Shown one piece after another: positions 2,003 through 10,830 of a DNA stretch of 52,958 bases. A program made the position numbers and the translations under genes. Every line of letters begins with the position of its first letter. Within the stretch, counting starts at the first letter, position 1. The notes under the pieces were generated by a model. That model ran no database searches and was not told the DNA's origin. It saw nothing but the letters and a program-made list of their open reading frames with translations. This DNA comes from Archaeoglobus neptunius (GTDB lineage Archaea > Halobacteriota > Archaeoglobi > Archaeoglobales > Archaeoglobaceae). The stretch covers positions 1 to 52,958 of the forward strand of contig NZ_JAEKIW010000017.1 in NCBI RefSeq assembly GCF_016757965.1, given 5' to 3'.

Positions 2003-2118
2003 ACCACCACCATTAGTTGATGGTCGAAAATAAAAAATAAAATTTTCTCTATAAAGTAAAATTTCTGATGAGAAACTGCAAAAGTGAAATGACAGGATAA
2101 TATATACTTAACACAAAA

Positions 2119-2787
2119 TTAAATATTATCGTAGTATAATTTTTCAAACATTTCTTTCGATTTCAGTTCAGCTTCCGATAGGCTGTCCAGTACAATCTTA
2201 ATTTTCTCTGCACTCTTCTTTACCATTTCAAATGCCTTATCGGTGTCGATTTCATCTTTGAGTTCGGATACACCAAGTATGATGGACAAGGGATTTCTCA
2301 GACGATCCGAAAGATACTGGAAGTGTTCCAGGTTGGCTTTAAGTCTCGAAAGCATTACGTCCATCTCGACCGTAATTTCAAGATTCTCAATAGCCCTTGA
2401 AAGAACTGTAACCATATCCTTCAGAATTTGAATTGTTTCCTCATTTGCATCCTTTAGGAAGATGTAAGCAGCAGCTTTGTTCGAGACTGGAATGGATAGA
2501 AGAAGTTTATGATCCACATCCTCACATTCGCAGTGCTCGGCATTCACGACGCTGAAAACCTTGGGGGTGTAATTCAGATACCTGCATTTCAGCACGTTTT
2601 CGTTCATCCTGTAATGTTCTCCGCTTTCATCCGTGACGATGACGCCGGTGCATTCGTCACTTTCAATTACAAGATCACAGAAATACTTTATCATCTTTTC
2701 CCGGTTTCTGAACATCCAGACGTTGCTCGAGAACGTAAACGCATTAAAAAGAAGTTCGTTGATCCGCCTTAGCTCTTCATCACTCAT
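2119..2787 (-). CDS. GAF-like protein with degenerate histidine-kinase DHp domain, no ATPase
   Basis: 222 aa. Residues about 25-135 look like a GAF-type sensor fold, with cysteines at 37, 46, 68, 86 and 88 (HCEC at 85-88). Residues about 145-205 resemble a histidine-kinase dimerisation helix pair: YLSDRLRNPLSIILG corresponds to the H-box, but the position of the phospho-acceptor His is Asp161. The only close histidine is H155. The protein ends without any HATPase domain, so it cannot be an autonomous kinase as it stands. It is the last gene of the archaellum transcription unit; its ATG overlaps the stop of the preceding gene by 4 nt (ATGA), which suggests translational coupling. A role as a sensory adaptor or phosphotransfer/dimerisation partner for motility is inference; no function is established. 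Confidence 0.8.
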   Translation of the reverse strand: MSDEELRRINELLFNAFTFSSNVWMFRNREKMIKYFCDLVIESDECTGVIVTDESGEHYRMNENVLKCRYLNYTPKVFSVVNAEHCECEDVDHKLLLSIPVSNKAAAYIFLKDANEETIQILKDMVTVLSRAIENLEITVEMDVMLSRLKANLEHFQYLSDRLRNPLSIILGVSELKDEIDTDKAFEMVKKSAEKIKIVLDSLSEAELKSKEMFEKLYYDNI

Positions 2788-3419
2788 CCTCTCCCACCTG
2801 CTAGAGCCTTAAACCTCTGTATTGTCTCCTGAAGTTCCCTTTCAAGCTCCTCGGCCGAGAACTTCTGTCCCTTAAGGTCCCTCAGAAGATCGATTTCCTC
2901 CTCTTCCTTGACCTCAACTTCCTTTGCAATGCTCGAGATAAGATCATCTTCCTCATCAAACTCAACCTCATCAACCTCCTCCTGCTCGAAATCATCATCT
3001 TCATCGGTGTCTTCGAGTTTCACCTCCTCACCAATATCCTCAAAATCCATATCCAGGTCCGAATTCAGATCTGGAAGGTCGGGTACATCTGGAAGCTTTT
3101 CTTCGCTATTTTCCACTGGCTTTATCGTGCTTGCAGTCTCCATCTCCTCGAGAAGATTGTCATCGATCTGCACCGTTTTAACGGCATCGTCCAGCGGAAC
3201 AACCTTTTCCTCAGCCTGACCCTCCCTCTTGCTCACGCCCGCACCAACAACCTCTTCGAGTTCTCTATCAACCTCCTTTATTTTCTCCTCAATCTCCTTC
3301 TTTCTCGCTATCTTCGGCACTTTCAATCTCTTCAGCATGTCACCTCCCACCCTATCGTTGAGATACGGCAGTGCCAGAACGATTGCTGCAAAAACAATAC
3401 CGATCACCAGCTCAATCAT
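2784..3419 (-). CDS. Membrane-anchored, highly acidic protein in archaellum operon (unknown function)
   Basis: 211 aa, not recognised as a named family. Residues 2-19 form one hydrophobic segment (IELVIGIVFAAIVLALPY), followed by a basic stretch (KRLKVPKIARKK) typical of a cytoplasmic stop-transfer flank, then a charged coiled-coil helix (about 40-60). A long Asp/Glu-rich and probably disordered part (about 100-180) contains runs such as DTDEDDDFEQEEVDEVEF, and a C-terminal amphipathic helix (about 185-208) closes it. It follows arlJ by 12 nt with a good site (GAGGTGAGGATATG). A single anchor with an acidic tail suggests a tether or scaffold at the motor base, perhaps linking ArlC/D/E-type proteins or chemotaxis components. 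That is inference from layout only. Confidence 0.72.
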   Translation of the reverse strand: MIELVIGIVFAAIVLALPYLNDRVGGDMLKRLKVPKIARKKEIEEKIKEVDRELEEVVGAGVSKREGQAEEKVVPLDDAVKTVQIDDNLLEEMETASTIKPVENSEEKLPDVPDLPDLNSDLDMDFEDIGEEVKLEDTDEDDDFEQEEVDEVEFDEEDDLISSIAKEVEVKEEEEIDLLRDLKGQKFSAEELERELQETIQRFKALAGGRG

Positions 3420-3431
3420 ATCCTCACCTCC

Positions 3432-5066
3432 TCACGTCTCCACAAAAGAGGGCAAACTAAACGCCCATTTGACAACTGGCGGAACAACAAGCATTAAAAT
3501 TCCGGATAAAATCAGGAAAATTGCTGCATAGTAAAGGTAAAGGTATTTTCCTCCACCCTTAACGATGTTTGCGGAAAGGGTGTTGGCGATGGTCAGGGAA
3601 ACAATTATCATAAGCGAGTACTGGTTGAGAAGATCGACGGGTATTCCCGAGAATATCCCTATGTTCAATCCCTGCAATCCACCGGGTATTTTGTTGAACA
3701 CCTCCCCTGTATCCACACCTCCAAGCTGGGTTGTGAAAAGATTTGAGATGTAGTCCGAGAATATGGCAAGTATCTGAGTTATGAACAGGATAAGGGAAAC
3801 CATAGCGAGATGGAGCGGAATTATTAGATTCACGAATCCCGAGGATATTAGATCCCTCTTCAACCTCAGCAGAACCATCTCCAGGTTTGATGATGATACT
3901 ATCTCTCCAACAACGTCAGCATCACCACCCAGATCGGTAGCATCCACAAATATTGCCGTCAGCTTGGAGATCAGGTAACTCCCGCTTTCACCGACGAACC
4001 TCTCCCAGGAAATTCTTGGATCCAGACCCATTGAAAGCCTCCTGTAAAGCTGCAACACGAGTTCTTTAAGCTCGCCGAGATTCTTCTGATCTATTCTGCT
4101 CAACGCCTCGGCCACGGAAACCCCGGCACCAGCTTTTATCGCACCCAGACTTCGGATGAATGCTGTGAAAGCCTCATCCCTTTTGCTGATCTTCACATCG
4201 TCAACCCTCGCCAGATAGCCAATCGGCAGGATTAAAATCCCCGCTAGAATGAATCCCAGTCCTCTGTAATCACCTCCGGGCAGCAATCCGAGATTCAGAA
4301 TTCCCGTTTTGAGATTAAACACTGTTGGCAGGATTGAAATGAAAGCAACCATCATTACAGCGATTGGAAGCAGTACAGGAGCTAATCGGGAGATTGCCAC
4401 CTGCTCTTTTGATTTGATTTTCATGTCATGAACCTTTCTGTCCTTGGGAACGGCTTTGAAGAGCATGAAAACTCCAAACAGGGCTATCACGAAGTTTCCG
4501 AATGCAGAAGTGATCAGTGTTGCAGATGGATCCCCGACACTGTAGATGACGACGGAGAGCAAAACCACAACAGATATCAGCGATGCCGAGACAAGAAGGG
4601 ATGTGTAAGCGTCACTCCACTTTCTCAGACTTTCAAGGTTTCGCTCGTATTCATCCTTTCTTACTGTTTTGAATGTTTTCCACTCCCTTTCGAGAAACTC
4701 ATCATCCGGTTCTCCTGCTGCTATTGCATTTGAAAGCCTGTTGAACAGCTTTTTCAGTCTCTCATGCCTGATCTTCTCTGCAACCAGCTCACAGGCTGTG
4801 GCATAGTCGTAATGCCATTTCTGAGTCAGGTCCTTGACCTTTCTGAAATACTCGCTGGGGGCGTACTCTTCCTTCTCGGAAACCATCTCAAATATCTTGT
4901 CTCTGCTGAGATTCGCTGTTGACAGCGAGGCCATGTAGGTAAGAGTAAAAAGAAGGTCATTGTCCATTAACAGCTCTTTTCCCCTGCTTTTTAATGCGTC
5001 AGAAATTCTACCAAGCTTTCCGAAACCAACGGAGATCTTCGGTGCCCTTGCAGTTTTGAACTCCAT
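3432..5066 (-). CDS. arlJ: Archaellum platform membrane protein ArlJ (FlaJ)
   Basis: 544 aa from the ATG at 5066 (AGGTGATTGAG ahead of it; a GTG three codons upstream is also open). ArlJ is the polytopic inner-membrane core of the archaellum motor, homologous to PilC/GspF, and couples ArlI ATP hydrolysis to filament assembly and rotation. The protein has two cytoplasmic helical domains, including SKRDEAFTAFIRSLGAIKAGAGVSVAEAL about residue 300, with the glycine-rich stretch usual for T2SSF domains. Clusters of membrane helices lie around 160-210, 230-285 and 415-545. Length matches the family. It starts 9 nt after the arlI stop, in the conserved arlH-arlI-arlJ order. Confidence 0.95.
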   Translation of the reverse strand: MEFKTARAPKISVGFGKLGRISDALKSRGKELLMDNDLLFTLTYMASLSTANLSRDKIFEMVSEKEEYAPSEYFRKVKDLTQKWHYDYATACELVAEKIRHERLKKLFNRLSNAIAAGEPDDEFLEREWKTFKTVRKDEYERNLESLRKWSDAYTSLLVSASLISVVVLLSVVIYSVGDPSATLITSAFGNFVIALFGVFMLFKAVPKDRKVHDMKIKSKEQVAISRLAPVLLPIAVMMVAFISILPTVFNLKTGILNLGLLPGGDYRGLGFILAGILILPIGYLARVDDVKISKRDEAFTAFIRSLGAIKAGAGVSVAEALSRIDQKNLGELKELVLQLYRRLSMGLDPRISWERFVGESGSYLISKLTAIFVDATDLGGDADVVGEIVSSSNLEMVLLRLKRDLISSGFVNLIIPLHLAMVSLILFITQILAIFSDYISNLFTTQLGGVDTGEVFNKIPGGLQGLNIGIFSGIPVDLLNQYSLMIIVSLTIANTLSANIVKGGGKYLYLYYAAIFLILSGILMLVVPPVVKWAFSLPSFVET

Positions 5067-5075
5067 CTCAATCAC

Positions 5076-6935
5076 CTAAACCTTAATGCTCAGCAACCCA
5101 CTCTTGTATATCTTCGATATCGACTTGAATAACTCATAGAAATCCGTGACCCCCTGTTCATGGAGCTTTTTGAGTATTCTGGCCCTTTTTTCAACCTCCT
5201 CGTAGATTAACCTCTTCTTGTTTGGTGGGATACCAAGTCTCGTTGCGATCTTCTGCTCCAAAAGATATGAGCTCCCGAATCCAGTGAATACATGCGTATC
5301 TGTAACAGGATCCCACTGAAAAACCTCGATGAATGATACTCCTCCCTTTTGCGGGTTATAACCGACGATTTCGCTAACACTGAGAACTCTCCTGACGAGC
5401 TTACCGTCGGGTCTCCTCACTGCACTCTGAATGACAACGAAGTTCAGGTTGTCTATGAATGTCTTTGGCACACTTATCGGTTCGGTTGTCAATCTCTGAA
5501 TTAGCTTCTCAACGGTTGCTGCATGGAATGTAGACATCACAGGGTGGCCCGTCTGCATGGCCTGAAACGCAATGTTGCCCTCAACACCTCTGATCTCACC
5601 AACCAGGATGTAGTTCGGCCTCTGTCTCAATGCAGCCTTCAGCAGATCGAACATTGTAACATCACTCCCTCCCCCCTCACCAATCCCGCCAGCTCTTGTG
5701 GAACCCCTTGTAACTTCTCTCGTCCAGTTCCTGTGCGGAACCTGCAGTTCAGGTGTGTCCTCAATAGAAACCACCTTCGCCTCCGGCCTGATGAATGCCG
5801 TAATCGCATTGAGAAGTGTGGTTTTACCACTTGCTGTCTCACCACAGATGAACCCGCTCATGCCTTCGCTGATCAGCAGCCAGAGATAGCCGGCGATCAT
5901 GTAGTCCAGAGAACCAAACTCTATCAGTTGCAGAACGCTGAACGGTGTTTCGTTGAACTTTCTGATTGTGAAGTTGCTACCGTTCTTGCTTATGTCGTTT
6001 CCAAAGACGATGTTAATTCTGCTTCCGTCCGGCAGGGTGGCATCAACTATTGGATCCTTGTAAGTCACGGGCTTTCCTATTCTCTCCGCCAGCCTTATTA
6101 TGAACTTGTTGAGAGTTTCCTCATCCCTGAACTCTATAACGCTCTTCAACCCCTTGAATATCTTGTGCTCAACAAAAATCGGACCCAAACCGCTGCAGGA
6201 AATGTCCTCGATGTACTTGTCTCTAATATAGGGCTCAAGGACACCCAGTCCAACCTTGTCCCTGATCAAGGCATACTCCAGCGCCTTGTACTGCTGCGCT
6301 GTTACCTTTATCTTGTCTCTGAATCCATTTTTACTGTTCCTGAAGAATCCCAGTTTTAGCCTGGGCAGTAGCCTCAGTTCGCCCCTGCTGTCCTCCATGA
6401 AAGATTCGCTGCCATCAGTGATCTCACAGACCTCTTTCAAAGCCTCTTTAAGAATCCTTATCTTCTCCTCATTGTCCTCCGGATCAAAGTCAATGTCCGT
6501 AATGTAGTCAACGAGCCTTATCTCGACTTCCTTCATCAGCTCGTCAACTCCAGTCAATAGTGTTGGCTCGATGGGGATGTAGAAGTTCCTCATATCGTTC
6601 TTGTCCGGGTAGACGTGGATGTATATCTGCTCATCCGCCGGGTAGATCAGATTCGGTCTGTCCAGATCGCCATGTTTCTTCCTGTCAAGCTTCGGGGCAA
6701 ATTTTGGTATTCCGATTTTGTCGAGGGGGAGAATATGGAGGTACTCAAGAAGATGGAGATTCTTCTCGACTTCCTTTTTCATCCTGTCGGGAAGCAGTTT
6801 GTAGATACCACAGGTTGCAATGTTGGAATGGTCATGTTCTTCCTCCAGTGCCCTTGGTTTGAAGGGAAAGTTGGCCACAACTCCCTGTTTCATCCCCTTC
6901 GGCTTAAAGCTGAACTCCAGCTTATCGACGGCCAT
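5076..6935 (-). CDS. arlI: Archaellum motor ATPase ArlI (FlaI)
   Basis: 619 aa, GspE/PilT-superfamily ATPase that forms a hexamer below ArlJ and powers both assembly and rotation of the archaellum. The N-terminal domain (about 1-210) is longer than in many homologues. The core shows Walker A GETASGKT at 365-372, the acidic Asp box (VVSIEDTPELQVPHRN), Walker B with LVGEIRGVEG, and the His box (GHPVMSTFHAAT). The start ATG follows a strong GAGGAGGGGGAG site. A 70-nt AT-rich gap separates it from arlH, unlike the tight spacing elsewhere in the operon, so a secondary promoter there is possible. Motifs are complete and the protein should be active. Confidence 0.97.
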   Translation of the reverse strand: MAVDKLEFSFKPKGMKQGVVANFPFKPRALEEEHDHSNIATCGIYKLLPDRMKKEVEKNLHLLEYLHILPLDKIGIPKFAPKLDRKKHGDLDRPNLIYPADEQIYIHVYPDKNDMRNFYIPIEPTLLTGVDELMKEVEIRLVDYITDIDFDPEDNEEKIRILKEALKEVCEITDGSESFMEDSRGELRLLPRLKLGFFRNSKNGFRDKIKVTAQQYKALEYALIRDKVGLGVLEPYIRDKYIEDISCSGLGPIFVEHKIFKGLKSVIEFRDEETLNKFIIRLAERIGKPVTYKDPIVDATLPDGSRINIVFGNDISKNGSNFTIRKFNETPFSVLQLIEFGSLDYMIAGYLWLLISEGMSGFICGETASGKTTLLNAITAFIRPEAKVVSIEDTPELQVPHRNWTREVTRGSTRAGGIGEGGGSDVTMFDLLKAALRQRPNYILVGEIRGVEGNIAFQAMQTGHPVMSTFHAATVEKLIQRLTTEPISVPKTFIDNLNFVVIQSAVRRPDGKLVRRVLSVSEIVGYNPQKGGVSFIEVFQWDPVTDTHVFTGFGSSYLLEQKIATRLGIPPNKKRLIYEEVEKRARILKKLHEQGVTDFYELFKSISKIYKSGLLSIKV

Positions 6936-7005: not shown

Positions 7006-7740
7006 CTACGCTCTCGCCTCCGAGACAGGTATTATCTTAAGCCCGAATCCCGGATGGACCTCAAAGCTGACAATATTGCCTGTAGTCTTTCTTGCCCCTC
7101 TTATCTTGGAAACTTCGAGCACGCTCACGTATCTATCCCCCACCTGCTCCTTTCTGAGAAAGAGGTGACAGTCGCATGCTGACCTTATCCTGACAAGGGT
7201 GTCTTCCTTGAACGCATGCTGGTGCAGTGTAATCAGGATGGTCTTTCCGTTGTCGCATAGATTTTTGAGCTTGGTCAGAAACTCCAGAACGTCATCCTCG
7301 GTAGAGTAGGTTGTGAACATCGTCAGAGAGTCGATAATGGCGATATTTTCCCTGATGCTTCTGATGTGATTCGCAACAAGATTCAGTATACTCCTCATCT
7401 GCTCGGTGCTCCAGTCCATACCCTCAAGATGAACGGGAAAAACTCTGAGATATCCCCAGGCGTAGAAATCCGAAACGTCAAGACTGAGAGACTCCATCTG
7501 TCTCAGAAAGCTCTTTATCGTGTTTTCCGTGGTGTAATATGCGATGTTATGCCCGTTTACCAGCCCTCCATAAACGAACTGCTGGCAGAGAACGCTCTTG
7601 CCTGTATCGTTCTCACCCTCAATAAGTGTCAGCGAACCGAGGGGAATTCCCCCACCAAGTCTCTTATCTATCTCCGTGTTTCCACTTGAAAGAATGCTCT
7701 TTTTCTTTTCCTCCTCCAGTTCCATCAGACTTTCAACCAT
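7006..7740 (-). CDS. arlH: Archaellum ATP-binding protein ArlH (FlaH)
   Basis: 244 aa RecA/KaiC-like protein that binds ATP and interacts with ArlI at the motor base; in characterised homologues nucleotide binding and autophosphorylation affect assembly. Walker A is ENDTGKSVL (about residues 41-49), Walker B IAIIDSLTMF, followed by the sensor region ILITLHQHAF. The ATG at 7740 has an excellent GGAGGTGATTGG site. It lies 12 nt downstream of arlF and 70 nt upstream of arlI. Confidence 0.95.
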   Translation of the reverse strand: MVESLMELEEEKKKSILSSGNTEIDKRLGGGIPLGSLTLIEGENDTGKSVLCQQFVYGGLVNGHNIAYYTTENTIKSFLRQMESLSLDVSDFYAWGYLRVFPVHLEGMDWSTEQMRSILNLVANHIRSIRENIAIIDSLTMFTTYSTEDDVLEFLTKLKNLCDNGKTILITLHQHAFKEDTLVRIRSACDCHLFLRKEQVGDRYVSVLEVSKIRGARKTTGNIVSFEVHPGFGLKIIPVSEARA

Positions 7741-7752
7741 CCAATCACCTCC

Positions 7753-8235
7753 TTATGGAACTGCAAAATCAAAACTGTCACAAACGGCATTTGGTGTGCA
7801 GATCAGCAGGACGTAACTGCCGTTTGCAAGCGGCTGCGTGAGGGTGGATTCCATCCTGGCGATCTCATGTGGATCAAATATGCCCGGATTGATCAGCTCC
7901 TTGACCACAGTATAGCTGGTAGAATTGAGGTAAAACGCCACCATCTCGCCAGTATCGGTTTTACCGTAGAGTATTGCATCAAATTCCAGGAAGTTCGGAT
8001 ATTTCACCTCTCCCGTGTTCTTGAAGTACGCTGTAACGGTTCCTGTTGAACTGTCGTAGGTTACGTTGAGGATGCTCATATCACTTCTGAGCTTCTTGAC
8101 TGCCATCTGTACCGCCTCCTTGTAACTCTCAATTGAATACTCAGCAATGGTTGTGGATCCGGCAAGGAAAGTGTACGCCACTGCCACGATTATTGCTGTG
8201 GCCATTATGGCCGCAACGACCGTGTCAAAGCCCAT
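7753..8235 (-). CDS. arlF: Archaellum stator protein ArlF (FlaF)
   Basis: 160 aa from the ATG at 8235 (MGFDTVV), chosen because GGTGA lies five bases ahead of it; in-frame starts up to 8247 exist. One N-terminal membrane helix (VVAAIMATAIIVAVAYTFLA) is followed by a beta-rich extracytoplasmic domain of archaellin-like fold. ArlF homologues bind the S-layer and, with ArlG, act as stator. It lies 5 nt after arlG. ArlF and ArlG are assigned by N-terminal pattern and order, so a swap of the two names is possible. Confidence 0.82.
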   Translation of the reverse strand: MGFDTVVAAIMATAIIVAVAYTFLAGSTTIAEYSIESYKEAVQMAVKKLRSDMSILNVTYDSSTGTVTAYFKNTGEVKYPNFLEFDAILYGKTDTGEMVAFYLNSTSYTVVKELINPGIFDPHEIARMESTLTQPLANGSYVLLICTPNAVCDSFDFAVP

Positions 8236-8240
8236 CTGCA

Positions 8241-8729
8241 TCACCACGAGAAGTAATCGGTGGCTTTAACCCCGTTGTAAAGAACGAAGGTCAGAAGGTA
8301 CTCGTCCTGTGGCATCTGGCTTGCATTTATGTTTTCAATGGAAAACCTCAGGGTCTCACCCTTTTCCCAGTAGTTGTCTCCATCACCGTTCTCTATTGCA
8401 AACGATACTCCGGGATCCGATGGTGTAAAGTGCAGGTAAGCCGAATTCGAGGTTAAGAATATGTCGCTCATCCGAATCAGGTCTGTGTCAAGCTTCGTGT
8501 TGCCGGTATTTTTCACCCAGAAGTAAACGTTTACGGTCGTTGATGTGTTGGTAACCTTAACGAAAATTATATCCATGTCCGTCTCAACTCTCTCGTTGAG
8601 ATTCCCGGAGACGGATGTGTAGGAGTGAGCTAAATCCTTAACAGCGGGCAAAATAACCATAACGGCAGCGGTAACCGCTATTACTGTTGCTATCATCAGA
8701 ATCGATGTGGATATCACCTCCCTTGCCAT
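8241..8729 (-). CDS. arlG: Archaellum stator protein ArlG (FlaG)
   Basis: 162 aa. The N-terminus MAREVISTSILMIATVIAVTA fits the ArlG signature (ISxxIL...A). A single membrane helix is followed by a beta-sandwich domain with conserved FWVKNTGNTKL, the archaellin-like strand pattern. In studied archaea ArlG forms short filaments capped by ArlF that connect the rotor to the cell envelope. The ATG is preceded by GAGGTATAACA. The domain ends YNGVKATDYFSW. It stands between arlD/E and arlF, as in other Archaeoglobales-type operons. Confidence 0.84.
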   Translation of the reverse strand: MAREVISTSILMIATVIAVTAAVMVILPAVKDLAHSYTSVSGNLNERVETDMDIIFVKVTNTSTTVNVYFWVKNTGNTKLDTDLIRMSDIFLTSNSAYLHFTPSDPGVSFAIENGDGDNYWEKGETLRFSIENINASQMPQDEYLLTFVLYNGVKATDYFSW

Positions 8730-8761
8730 TGTTATACCTCAGCGCAGCCGCTCTCACGGCC

Positions 8762-9505
8762 TCACAGCCTCTTATCCAGTATCAGGCTCAGCAGCTTTGA
8801 ATCCATGCTTGTATCTTCGGGATTCATCAGCTTGTGAAGTCTGTAAAGTTCCAGGATAATGTCCTCGAATCCATCGTTCAGTGCTATGAGCTCCGCAACC
8901 TTCGTCACAAAATCCCTTGATTCTTCAGAGATATATCCTGCAGACTCGAAGATCTCGAGCATCAGTCGCAGCGAATCCACAGTGTACTTCTCAAGCATCC
9001 CCTTAACCCACTGCATGAGATTGAACAGTGTAACAATGTCATATTTTGTGAATACCATCTCCCTTTTCGCAACTGCTTTCTCCCCCAGAGGCTGTGCCTT
9101 TTCTTTAACGCTATATACCTGTTCTGCCACAATATCACCCTCTTCTTCGGGCATCACCTCCACACTTTTATCAAAATCCTCCTCTTCCACAACTCCTTCA
9201 ACCCCCTCATTCTCCTCCTGTTCTGCCTTCTCCTCATGAGGGGGCTCGGGAATTTGAGCAGGAATGACCTGAACCTGCTGTACAGGTGGCTGGTGCATTG
9301 TGGGTAACGCACCTTCTGCAAGGTTCTGGAGATTCTGAAACGGGTTTTCGATGTTGTTCAGTGTCTCTCTCAAATCAAGCAGTAACTTCTTTACAGATCC
9401 CTTAAGAACGTCGAGTTCCTTTTCCAGCTTGTCTATTCTGCTCTCTGGTGTGTCGGCTTCCGCACTTGCAAGAATCTCATCAATCGCTGCCTGATCGACC
9501 TCCAT
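8762..9505 (-). CDS. Archaellum cytoplasmic ring protein ArlD/E (FlaD/FlaE domain)
   Basis: 247 aa. Residues about 18-60 form a coiled coil (ESRIDKLEKELDVLKGS). Residues 75-150 are Pro- and Glu-rich and probably disordered. Residues about 150-247 match the FlaD/E C-terminal accessory domain (YDIVTLFNLMQWVKGMLEKY...ISEESRDFVTKVAELI). In euryarchaea ArlC/D/E form the cytoplasmic ring that receives CheY through CheF and so links chemotaxis to the motor. The window has one such gene and no separate arlC. The ATG follows AGAGGTGATCCC. Its acidic middle resembles the acidic anchored protein at 2784-3419, which could reflect a shared partner. Confidence 0.88.
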   Translation of the reverse strand: MEVDQAAIDEILASAEADTPESRIDKLEKELDVLKGSVKKLLLDLRETLNNIENPFQNLQNLAEGALPTMHQPPVQQVQVIPAQIPEPPHEEKAEQEENEGVEGVVEEEDFDKSVEVMPEEEGDIVAEQVYSVKEKAQPLGEKAVAKREMVFTKYDIVTLFNLMQWVKGMLEKYTVDSLRLMLEIFESAGYISEESRDFVTKVAELIALNDGFEDIILELYRLHKLMNPEDTSMDSKLLSLILDKRL

Positions 9506-9544
9506 GGGATCACCTCTAAAAAATAAAATTAAAAAAATTCGAAA

Positions 9545-10138
9545 CTACCTGATCAGCACCATCACACTGTCGATGCTCGGTGGAGCCTTGAGCTCGATCG
9601 GATAGCTTGCACCTATGGGTGGTTTAACTTCAACCACAAAGTCATCATTGGGGTTGATATTGAAGCTGCTGAGATCAACCTTAACTTCTGCCTTCTCAAA
9701 CTCCTCAAGGTAGTTGTCAGGATTGCTTCCCTGCAGGCTGTAGATCCAGGTCACCTTGTAGTGGCTGGAATCTGCAGTGGTAGTGCTGTACTTGAACTCC
9801 TGATAGCTTCCATCTGCCGGCACGAGAACCGTTATAACAGTTTTGTTCAGATCGATTGGCTGTCCACCGGCAGCAAGCTGCAGTGTGAACGTGACGCTCG
9901 TAAGCTTGTTCTGTGTGGTGTTGCCTGTTGCAACAACACTGCCCACAAGCTCCATGCTGCTCGTGGCCTGCTTGACTCCAGTATGCACAGTCTCCTGACC
10001 CTTCTGGGTTGCGAAGAATCCTGCCCCAAGCAGCACGTAGCTGAACACCGCCGCAACTGTGACGAAGGCTATCAGCACGATTGCCGCCTCAAGGCCCGTG
10101 AAACCCTTCATGTCCTTACCAAATCTCTTCCACACCAT
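9545..10138 (-). CDS. Archaellin (second gene, major filament protein family)
   Basis: 197 aa preprotein from the ATG at 10138 (GAGGTG six bases upstream); ATG and GTG codons three to four positions earlier are also open. A class III signal peptide ends at ...KDMKG, with predicted cleavage before FTGLEAAIVLIAF by the archaellum prepilin peptidase (not in this window). The hydrophobic helix about 13-40 forms the filament core. The remainder is a beta-rich outer domain ending ...VEVKPPIGASYPIELKAPPSIDSVMV. It has two Asn-X-Ser/Thr sequons (NTT, NKT), candidate AglB glycosylation sites, and no cysteine. It is a tandem paralogue of the gene upstream, 10 nt away. Confidence 0.94.
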   Translation of the reverse strand: MVWKRFGKDMKGFTGLEAAIVLIAFVTVAAVFSYVLLGAGFFATQKGQETVHTGVKQATSSMELVGSVVATGNTTQNKLTSVTFTLQLAAGGQPIDLNKTVITVLVPADGSYQEFKYSTTTADSSHYKVTWIYSLQGSNPDNYLEEFEKAEVKVDLSSFNINPNDDFVVEVKPPIGASYPIELKAPPSIDSVMVLIR

Positions 10139-10148
10139 GCGCATCACC

Positions 10149-10787
10149 TCAGATATAGGTTAAGTTTGTGAAGCTTGGTGGCAGAGTCTTGGTTATCGCC
10201 AGCGGTGCACCGATGGGCGGGCGGACTTCAATCGTAACCTGGTCATTCGGATTGAGGGTGCCAATATCGTTGCTCCAGTCCGTCAGGGTAACGTTTATCA
10301 CTATCTTGTACTTTTCATTCGGCTCAACAACGTTGTCACCATCACCAATTGTATTGACATACCACCACGGACAGTTTGCGCCACCCGAACCGGGTGTGCA
10401 TGCAGTTTCATTGTAAAATATCTGCTTGTATCCGCTGCTTGTGGTTATTGCTATTGACGTCTTGTTGAGGTCAACCGGAGATCCACCAGCCGTCTGCGTT
10501 ACGTAGAAGTAAACCTCACCCACCTGTCCATTAGACCCGGTGCTTCCCCCTTTTGCACTGGTACAGTCCAGATAGATGTACTGCCCGTCCAGTGTAAGAC
10601 TGCTTGAAGCCTGTTTTACTCCGGTGTCAACGACCTTCTTTGACTTCTGTGTGGTGTAGAAACCGGCTCCCAGCATGACGTAGCTGAACACCGCTGCTAC
10701 CACAACGAACGCTATCAGCACGATCGCTGCTTCAAGTCCGGTGAAACCCTTTTCGTCACTTCTTATTTTCAAAACTCCTCTCCTCAT
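10149..10787 (-). CDS. Archaellin (first gene of archaellum operon)
   Basis: 212 aa preprotein. The ATG at 10787 follows GGGGTGAT. The class III signal ends at ...RSDEKG, with cleavage before FTGLEAAIVLIAFVVVAAVF, nearly identical to the second archaellin. The outer domain differs: it carries three cysteines (LDCTS, ETACTPG, GANCPWW), unusual for an archaellin, and four sequons (NKT, NET, NVT, NLT). It is the promoter-proximal gene, with a TATA box at 10831-10839, and is probably the most highly expressed. The two archaellins share the PPIGA...KxxPPS C-terminal pattern, which indicates duplication followed by divergence of the surface. Confidence 0.94.
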   Translation of the reverse strand: MRRGVLKIRSDEKGFTGLEAAIVLIAFVVVAAVFSYVMLGAGFYTTQKSKKVVDTGVKQASSSLTLDGQYIYLDCTSAKGGSTGSNGQVGEVYFYVTQTAGGSPVDLNKTSIAITTSSGYKQIFYNETACTPGSGGANCPWWYVNTIGDGDNVVEPNEKYKIVINVTLTDWSNDIGTLNPNDQVTIEVRPPIGAPLAITKTLPPSFTNLTYI

Positions 10788-10830
10788 GCCATCACCCCAC
10801 ACTTCCTCAAAATTTCCTGATAGATAGACA

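Follow-up and report, generated by a model that had tools for sequence, protein, structure and literature searches.

A GAF protein with an Asp-type, ATPase-less DHp hairpin encoded at the end of the archaellum operon of Archaeoglobus neptunius

In Caulobacter the histidine kinase-like protein DivL carries a Tyr in place of the phospho-acceptor His, and acts through a receiver. PhyT/PhyP and Spo0B are DHp proteins devoid of a working ATPase which act on receivers via a His. In archaea, non-enzymatic histidine kinase-like proteins have been grouped in a class, 'HisKA, no HATPase', found in Archaeoglobi and methanogens. The passages devoted to this class by Galperin et al. (2018, PMC5847659) state that the His is conserved and suggest a phosphatase activity; neither a copy in the archaellum operon nor a fusion to CheW is mentioned there. 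In bacterial HisKA proteins the acidic residue following the His (+1) is required for the kinase activity only, and the Thr or Asn at +4 for the phosphatase activity only (PMC3510030).

The protein described here, called HKL, is encoded by A. neptunius in the window, the stretch of 52,958 nucleotides that was analysed, which corresponds to an entire contig. HKL belongs to the archaeal class, as it features the same arrangement of a PAS/GAF sensor and a C-terminal HisKA-like hairpin, with no HATPase domain. The passages on the class report a conserved His, whereas an Asp was found at this position in 106 of the 106 modules aligned here, the His, if present, being located one residue later; the His meant in the paper is possibly the one that methanogen members have at +1. 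The register of the hairpin is the same as in HK853 and CrdS. Asp161 of HKL corresponds to the His and Asn165 to the Thr/Asn phosphatase residue, and Gly172 falls at His+11, a receiver-contact position occupied by A271 in HK853 (PDB title 4jau). HKL differs from both kinases because CA domain, His and +1 acid are all missing, from DivL because the latter keeps an ATPase-like domain, and from PhyT/PhyP and Spo0B in lacking the His through which these act. CheZ, CheX and CheC feature an acid and an amide paired on a helix (DxxxQ, ExxN), and HKL similarly has DxxxN; their folds are different, and HKL is a candidate phosphatase only.

The HKL gene and its genomic context

The features of the region are listed in Table 1. 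HKL is the last gene of a series ordered arlB-…-arlH-I-J-P211-HKL, in agreement with the location at the end of the archaellum operon proposed in an earlier note on this DNA. The HKL start codon shares bases with the stop codon of P211, the overlap being the tetranucleotide ATGA at 2784-2787. A chemoreceptor gene is found 3' of HKL, after about 117 bp. In relatives, the counterpart of this gene leads into cheW-cheF-cheY-cheB-cheA; in A. neptunius the che cluster is located on another contig (C9), the start of which carries the same order onward (L162). The interval separating HKL from the chemoreceptor gene contains a 38-bp AT-rich block, shared without any change by five loci of the Archaeoglobus group and present only once in the genome. 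It is a probable promoter/operator of the che unit, and would mark the start of a separate che transcript.

Table 1. Coordinates of the archaellum-unit genes, of HKL and its parts, and of the adjoining sequences in the window
Feature	Position	Strand	Basis
HKL, 222-aa GAF + Asp-type pseudo-DHp protein, final gene of the archaellum unit	2119..2787	-	ORF, Pfam, AlphaFold
GAF-fold sensor, HKL residues 1-115	2443..2787	-	AlphaFold model and PDB comparison
Pseudo-DHp helical hairpin, HKL residues 116-221	2125..2442	-	Pfam HisKA (154-203) and predicted helices
Asp161 codon (gat), canonical phospho-His position	2305..2307	-	alignment
Asn165 codon (aat), His+4, phosphatase residue of HisKA kinases	2293..2295	-	alignment
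P211, membrane-anchored acidic protein, conserved, between arlJ and HKL	2784..3419	-	
arlJ	3432..5075	-	Pfam T2SSF
arlI	5076..6935	-	Pfam T2SSE
arlH (KaiC-like ATPase)	7006..7740	-	
arlG/arlF-like, arlD/E-like and two archaellin genes	7753..10802	-	Pfam Arch_flagellin for 4 of 5
247-aa ArlD/E-like protein	8762-9505	-	position and sequence; no Pfam match
Multi-PAS soluble chemoreceptor, extending past the contig end	2..2002	-	
38-bp AT-rich block, HKL-chemoreceptor intergenic region	2028..2065	-	

P211 gave no match in Pfam or NCBIfam. The protein has a conserved C-terminal EEIDLLRDLKGQKF motif, and in Archaeoglobaceae its gene comes after arlJ with or without HKL (the latter is absent from loci L086 and L091). 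P211 is possibly an unrecognised archaellum component.

A family-wide search covering 55 genomes of Archaeoglobaceae identified HKL relatives in 15 other genomes, full-length in 14 and broken in one (G005). In the latter, an incomplete assembly, a frameshift splits the gene (locus L022), as a result of either an assembly error or a recent loss. All the 16 loci, including those of the window and of G005, are placed directly downstream of arlJ-P211. In each of the 15 intact copies, that of the window included, the His is replaced by Asp and followed at +1 by Arg or Lys, the +4 residue is Asn, and the ATPase is missing. The survey proposed in the earlier note, whether homologues always sit downstream of arlJ and always lack the His, has a positive answer for these orthologues. 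Homologues with an intact His and an ATPase encoded by an adjacent frame were also searched for at the orthologous loci, but none was found, the neighbours of HKL being P211 and the chemoreceptor gene. In phylogenetic trees HKL orthologues form a single clade (support 100/99), close to a longer GAF-DHp paralogue. The dN/dS ratio ranges from 0.04 to 0.13 in pairs with measurable dS, and HKL is a real gene under purifying selection.

True arlJ genes, at least 62% identical to that of the window, are found in 20 genomes (one partial), 16 of which have HKL (one broken); HKL was found without arlJ in none of the 55. Genes encoding CheW domains were detected in all the 14 HKL genomes tested, and a CheA-length frame in 13 of these. 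G013 has arlJ, and lacks both CheW and HKL. Three genomes (G010, G014, G020) have arlJ and che genes and no HKL, which is therefore not essential for chemotaxis. The order arlJ-P211-HKL-MCP-cheW-cheF-cheY-cheB-cheA is found in A. fulgidus (G001) and at L051, L053/L056, L057 and L059; this makes six loci in five genomes, counted where enough downstream sequence is present. In five g13 genomes the che cluster lies away from HKL. Independence from CheA, which might be deduced from this arrangement, was rejected, as these genomes also keep CheW-domain genes.

Structure and key residues of HKL

The AlphaFold model of HKL (mean pLDDT 87.6, pTM 0.69) includes an alpha/beta domain (residues 1-115) followed by a two-helix hairpin (helices 116-175 and 182-220). 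The N-terminal domain is a GAF by fold, as shown by comparison with 5hl6 (Z 14.2, rmsd 3.0, 132 residues aligned) and 3cit (Z 14.1). The GAF-like sensor indicated earlier is therefore recognized by structure, though HKL itself is not scored by the Pfam GAF profile, which finds the domain at the equivalent place in HKL paralogues. Searches against PDB sequences returned chance matches only (homeodomains, Vps35), and the NCBIfam scan no useful match.

The hairpin matches Pfam HisKA at residues 154-203 with an E value of 1.5e-5 and a score of 25.4 bits, slightly below the cut-off of 26.9, and HisKA was matched in 11 of the 11 orthologues scanned (E <= 0.1; best E 3.7e-8). The DHp H-box noticed earlier reads SDRLRNPL, and the acceptor position is indeed occupied by Asp161. 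The frame stops 61 residues past this Asp, and HKL has no match to HATPase domains, as expected from the claim that translation ends before any such domain. When the hairpin alone is used in Foldseek, many unrelated coiled hairpins tie, DivL (4q20) and HK853-RR468 being found among the weak matches. A search by fold thus does not single out a DHp, which is assigned here from the HisKA profile and the motif. The hairpin has been predicted as a single chain, and a DHp-like dimer is presumed. Lacking both kinase-essential residues and the ATPase, HKL is a non-kinase signalling protein.

The Cys residues at positions 37, 46, 68, 86 and 88, which had suggested redox or metal sensing by the GAF part, are all present in HKL. 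Among orthologues, Cys46 alone never varies, and Cys68 is almost as constant. The loop C86-x-C88..H93 is absent as a block from five orthologues, and since Cys86, Cys88 and His93 are lost together in these, the hypothesis that the Cys set serves a conserved sensing function was discarded; a metal or redox site may be confined to a subset of orthologues.

A family of Asp-type DHp modules

HKL is not isolated. Many PAS/GAF proteins encoded by the same genome and by its relatives end in the same hairpin, about 50-70 residues past the Asp; in this large PAS/GAF family with an Asp-type DHp and no ATPase, HKL is the smallest protein. Searched with a profile of the hairpin, A. neptunius gave about 13 module matches and A. 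fulgidus 11; strong ones were obtained in other families of the phylum too. The pseudokinase proposed earlier is indeed a catalytically dead DHp protein, one of many such proteins in its own genome, which the earlier note had missed.

Modules from the fetched loci, 106 in number and distributed in seven archaeal families, have been aligned for comparison. The Asp is conserved in all, Asn(+4) in 101, Pro(+5) in 102 and Gly(+11) in 95. Arg, Lys or His replace at +1 the acidic residue needed by kinases only in 91 modules; His accounts for 34 of the 106, and is often found in methanogen members. In a few methanogen modules Leu or Gln substitute for Asn(+4), and the Asp is still kept. All the sequences used for building the profile contain the Asp; strongly divergent modules would escape it, but one differing only by His in place of Asp should be recovered. 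The true kinases of the same genomes, having HATPase domains, all carry H[DE] in the motifs RHDxxN or SHDLxxP. By these sequence signatures, kinase hairpins and Asp-type hairpins are thus cleanly separated.

Proteins organized as PAS - Asp-type HisKA - RyR, encoded in two genomes of another family (L202:3494-4645, minus strand; L203:3614-4753, plus strand), are unique among the members seen in that the hairpin is followed by a further domain. A PAS protein from the A. fulgidus che cluster (L050:7002-7853, plus strand) ends with a DHp-like helix pair lacking the H-box motif.

Modules are often found close to receiver genes. Within the fetched regions, 17 of 62 are located within 300 bp of a receiver gene or are fused to one, against a chance expectation of about 1% (roughly 3-15 receivers per genome, about 2,000 genes); several of the 17 are mutually orthologous, and independent cases are about ten. 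Two layouts recur, namely kinase-receiver-[receiver-PAS-Asp-DHp] and Asp-DHp-receiver. The HKL subfamily has no receiver neighbour outside the che region, and none of the nearest paralogues (ADRLRNP type) is adjacent to one. On contig C16 of A. neptunius (L135:2041-5240, plus strand), one stand-alone receiver gene is flanked by two Asp-DHp genes.

Associations with chemotaxis genes are of various types. CheW-PAS-HisKA fusions, with Asp and no ATPase, are encoded beside MCP-CheW genes in two genomes (L214:2156-3853 and L213:3731-5023, both plus strand). In G004 a CheW-PAS-HisKA(Asp) fusion shares the contig with HKL and the che cluster. The che cluster of A. fulgidus hosts a second Asp-DHp protein at the end opposite to HKL. 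The earlier idea that HKL feeds a cytoplasmic signal into the archaellum is consistent in outline with the GAF sensor and the conserved arl linkage. That the signal is independent of CheA fits poorly with the constant presence of CheW-domain genes, and mostly of a CheA-length frame, in the HKL genomes tested, with the joint absence of CheW and HKL from G013, with che clusters often lying directly after HKL, and with the fusion of the module to CheW.

Possible functions of HKL

In the reading that is favoured, at a probability of about 0.45, HKL is a GAF-gated receiver-binding protein having CheY as likeliest partner, and either dephosphorylates or sequesters CheY-P. The reason is that the +1 acid, the His and the ATPase have been lost in HKL and its family while the +4 Asn is retained. 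The occurrence of HKL only with arlJ and CheW-domain genes, and the proximity of the wider module to receivers and CheW, also speak for this reading; the lack of receiver neighbours of the HKL subfamily outside the che region, the g13 genomes with che elsewhere, and the arl and che genomes that do without HKL speak against it. We infer that HKL dimerises, that CheY is its partner, and that phosphatase action or sequestration is the outcome. The GAF domain would read a cytoplasmic signal; the dimeric Asp-type hairpin, which cannot take up phosphate from ATP and retains the Asn, Pro and Gly of the HisKA receiver-docking face, would bind a stand-alone receiver, for which CheY is the strongest candidate. 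CheY-P would be lowered by dephosphorylation, with Asn165 at the phosphatase position aided by Asp161, or by holding, and the cytoplasmic state would in this way add to the CheA pathway in biasing the archaellum switch. That HKL acts as a phosphatase in particular is rather unlikely. These genomes already encode CheC, which is likely to dephosphorylate CheY-P, and chemistry based on the Asn alone does not explain the conservation of the Asp, since a few modules lose the former and keep the latter. PhyP, formerly called a phosphatase, turned out to be a phosphotransferase (PMC5898713), and ChrS cut within the CA domain loses the phosphatase function (PMC9491836).

The stricter linkage of HKL to arlJ-P211 than to che genes, the ATGA coupling with P211, the absence of receivers beside the paralogues of the HKL subfamily, and the conservation of the Asp, higher than that of the phosphatase Asn, would all fit a dimeric GAF adaptor that directly binds parts of the archaellum switch or export apparatus (ArlC/D/E, ArlH/I/J) or P211, with no receiver involved and the DHp serving only for dimerisation and signal transmission. 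This is the most probable of the alternatives, and an unlikely one: P211 exists without HKL, which is therefore not needed for P211, Asn(+4) and Gly(+11) of the docking face are retained, and HKL is seen only in genomes with CheW-domain genes. The earlier note had also considered that HKL may dimerise with a true histidine kinase. HKL would then modulate the kinase as DivL does with CckA. The DivL precedent, the weak match of the hairpin to the DivL structure and the known ChrS-HrrS heterodimers (PMC9491836) speak for it. Mixed hairpin dimers are nevertheless improbable, because all the true kinases of the genome have a DHp of another type (RHDxxN or SHDLxxP), and the only kinase gene near HKL encodes CheA, which lacks a HisKA-type DHp.

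Occurrence of module genes in kinase-receiver clusters, the frequent His at +1 in methanogen members and the PhyT precedent (PMC5898713) may suggest that HKL transfers phosphate between receivers through another residue, for example phospho-Asp161 or a nearby His, in the manner of Spo0B/PhyT. In the HKL orthologues, the +1 residue is Arg or Lys, and the hairpin contains no His that is conserved. We know of no precedent for phosphotransfer from Asp to Asp, and this hypothesis is very improbable. The least credible view is that HKL is the remnant of a decaying kinase. The catalytic residues are absent and one genome, incompletely assembled, has a broken copy; but the low dN/dS values, the frame intact in 15 genomes including that of A. 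neptunius, and an Asp invariant in more than 100 relatives refute decay, provided that at least some members are expressed.

Extending receiver binding to the whole family is a more doubtful step. The invariant Asp would define a separate non-kinase DHp class of Archaeoglobi and methanogen-type archaea, dedicated to dephosphorylating or clamping receivers under the control of the sensor, and the member encoded in the arl operon would provide a direct cytoplasmic input to the motor switch via CheY, outside the CheA phosphorylation chain.

How the state of the cell is transmitted to archaellum rotation is little known in archaea beyond CheA-CheY-CheF. With a conserved sensor gene set between motor and che genes, and carrying a one-residue signature, the existence of a second input can be put to the test. 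The description of the class is also corrected, as proteins often named histidine kinases have a constant Asp, have lost the kinase residues and keep the phosphatase residue. HKL belongs to a known but unstudied class, in which a specialist would not expect either the invariant Asp or the links to arl, che and CheW. Judging from sequence, the likeliest role of HKL is to modulate swimming through binding to CheY, which it may also inactivate.
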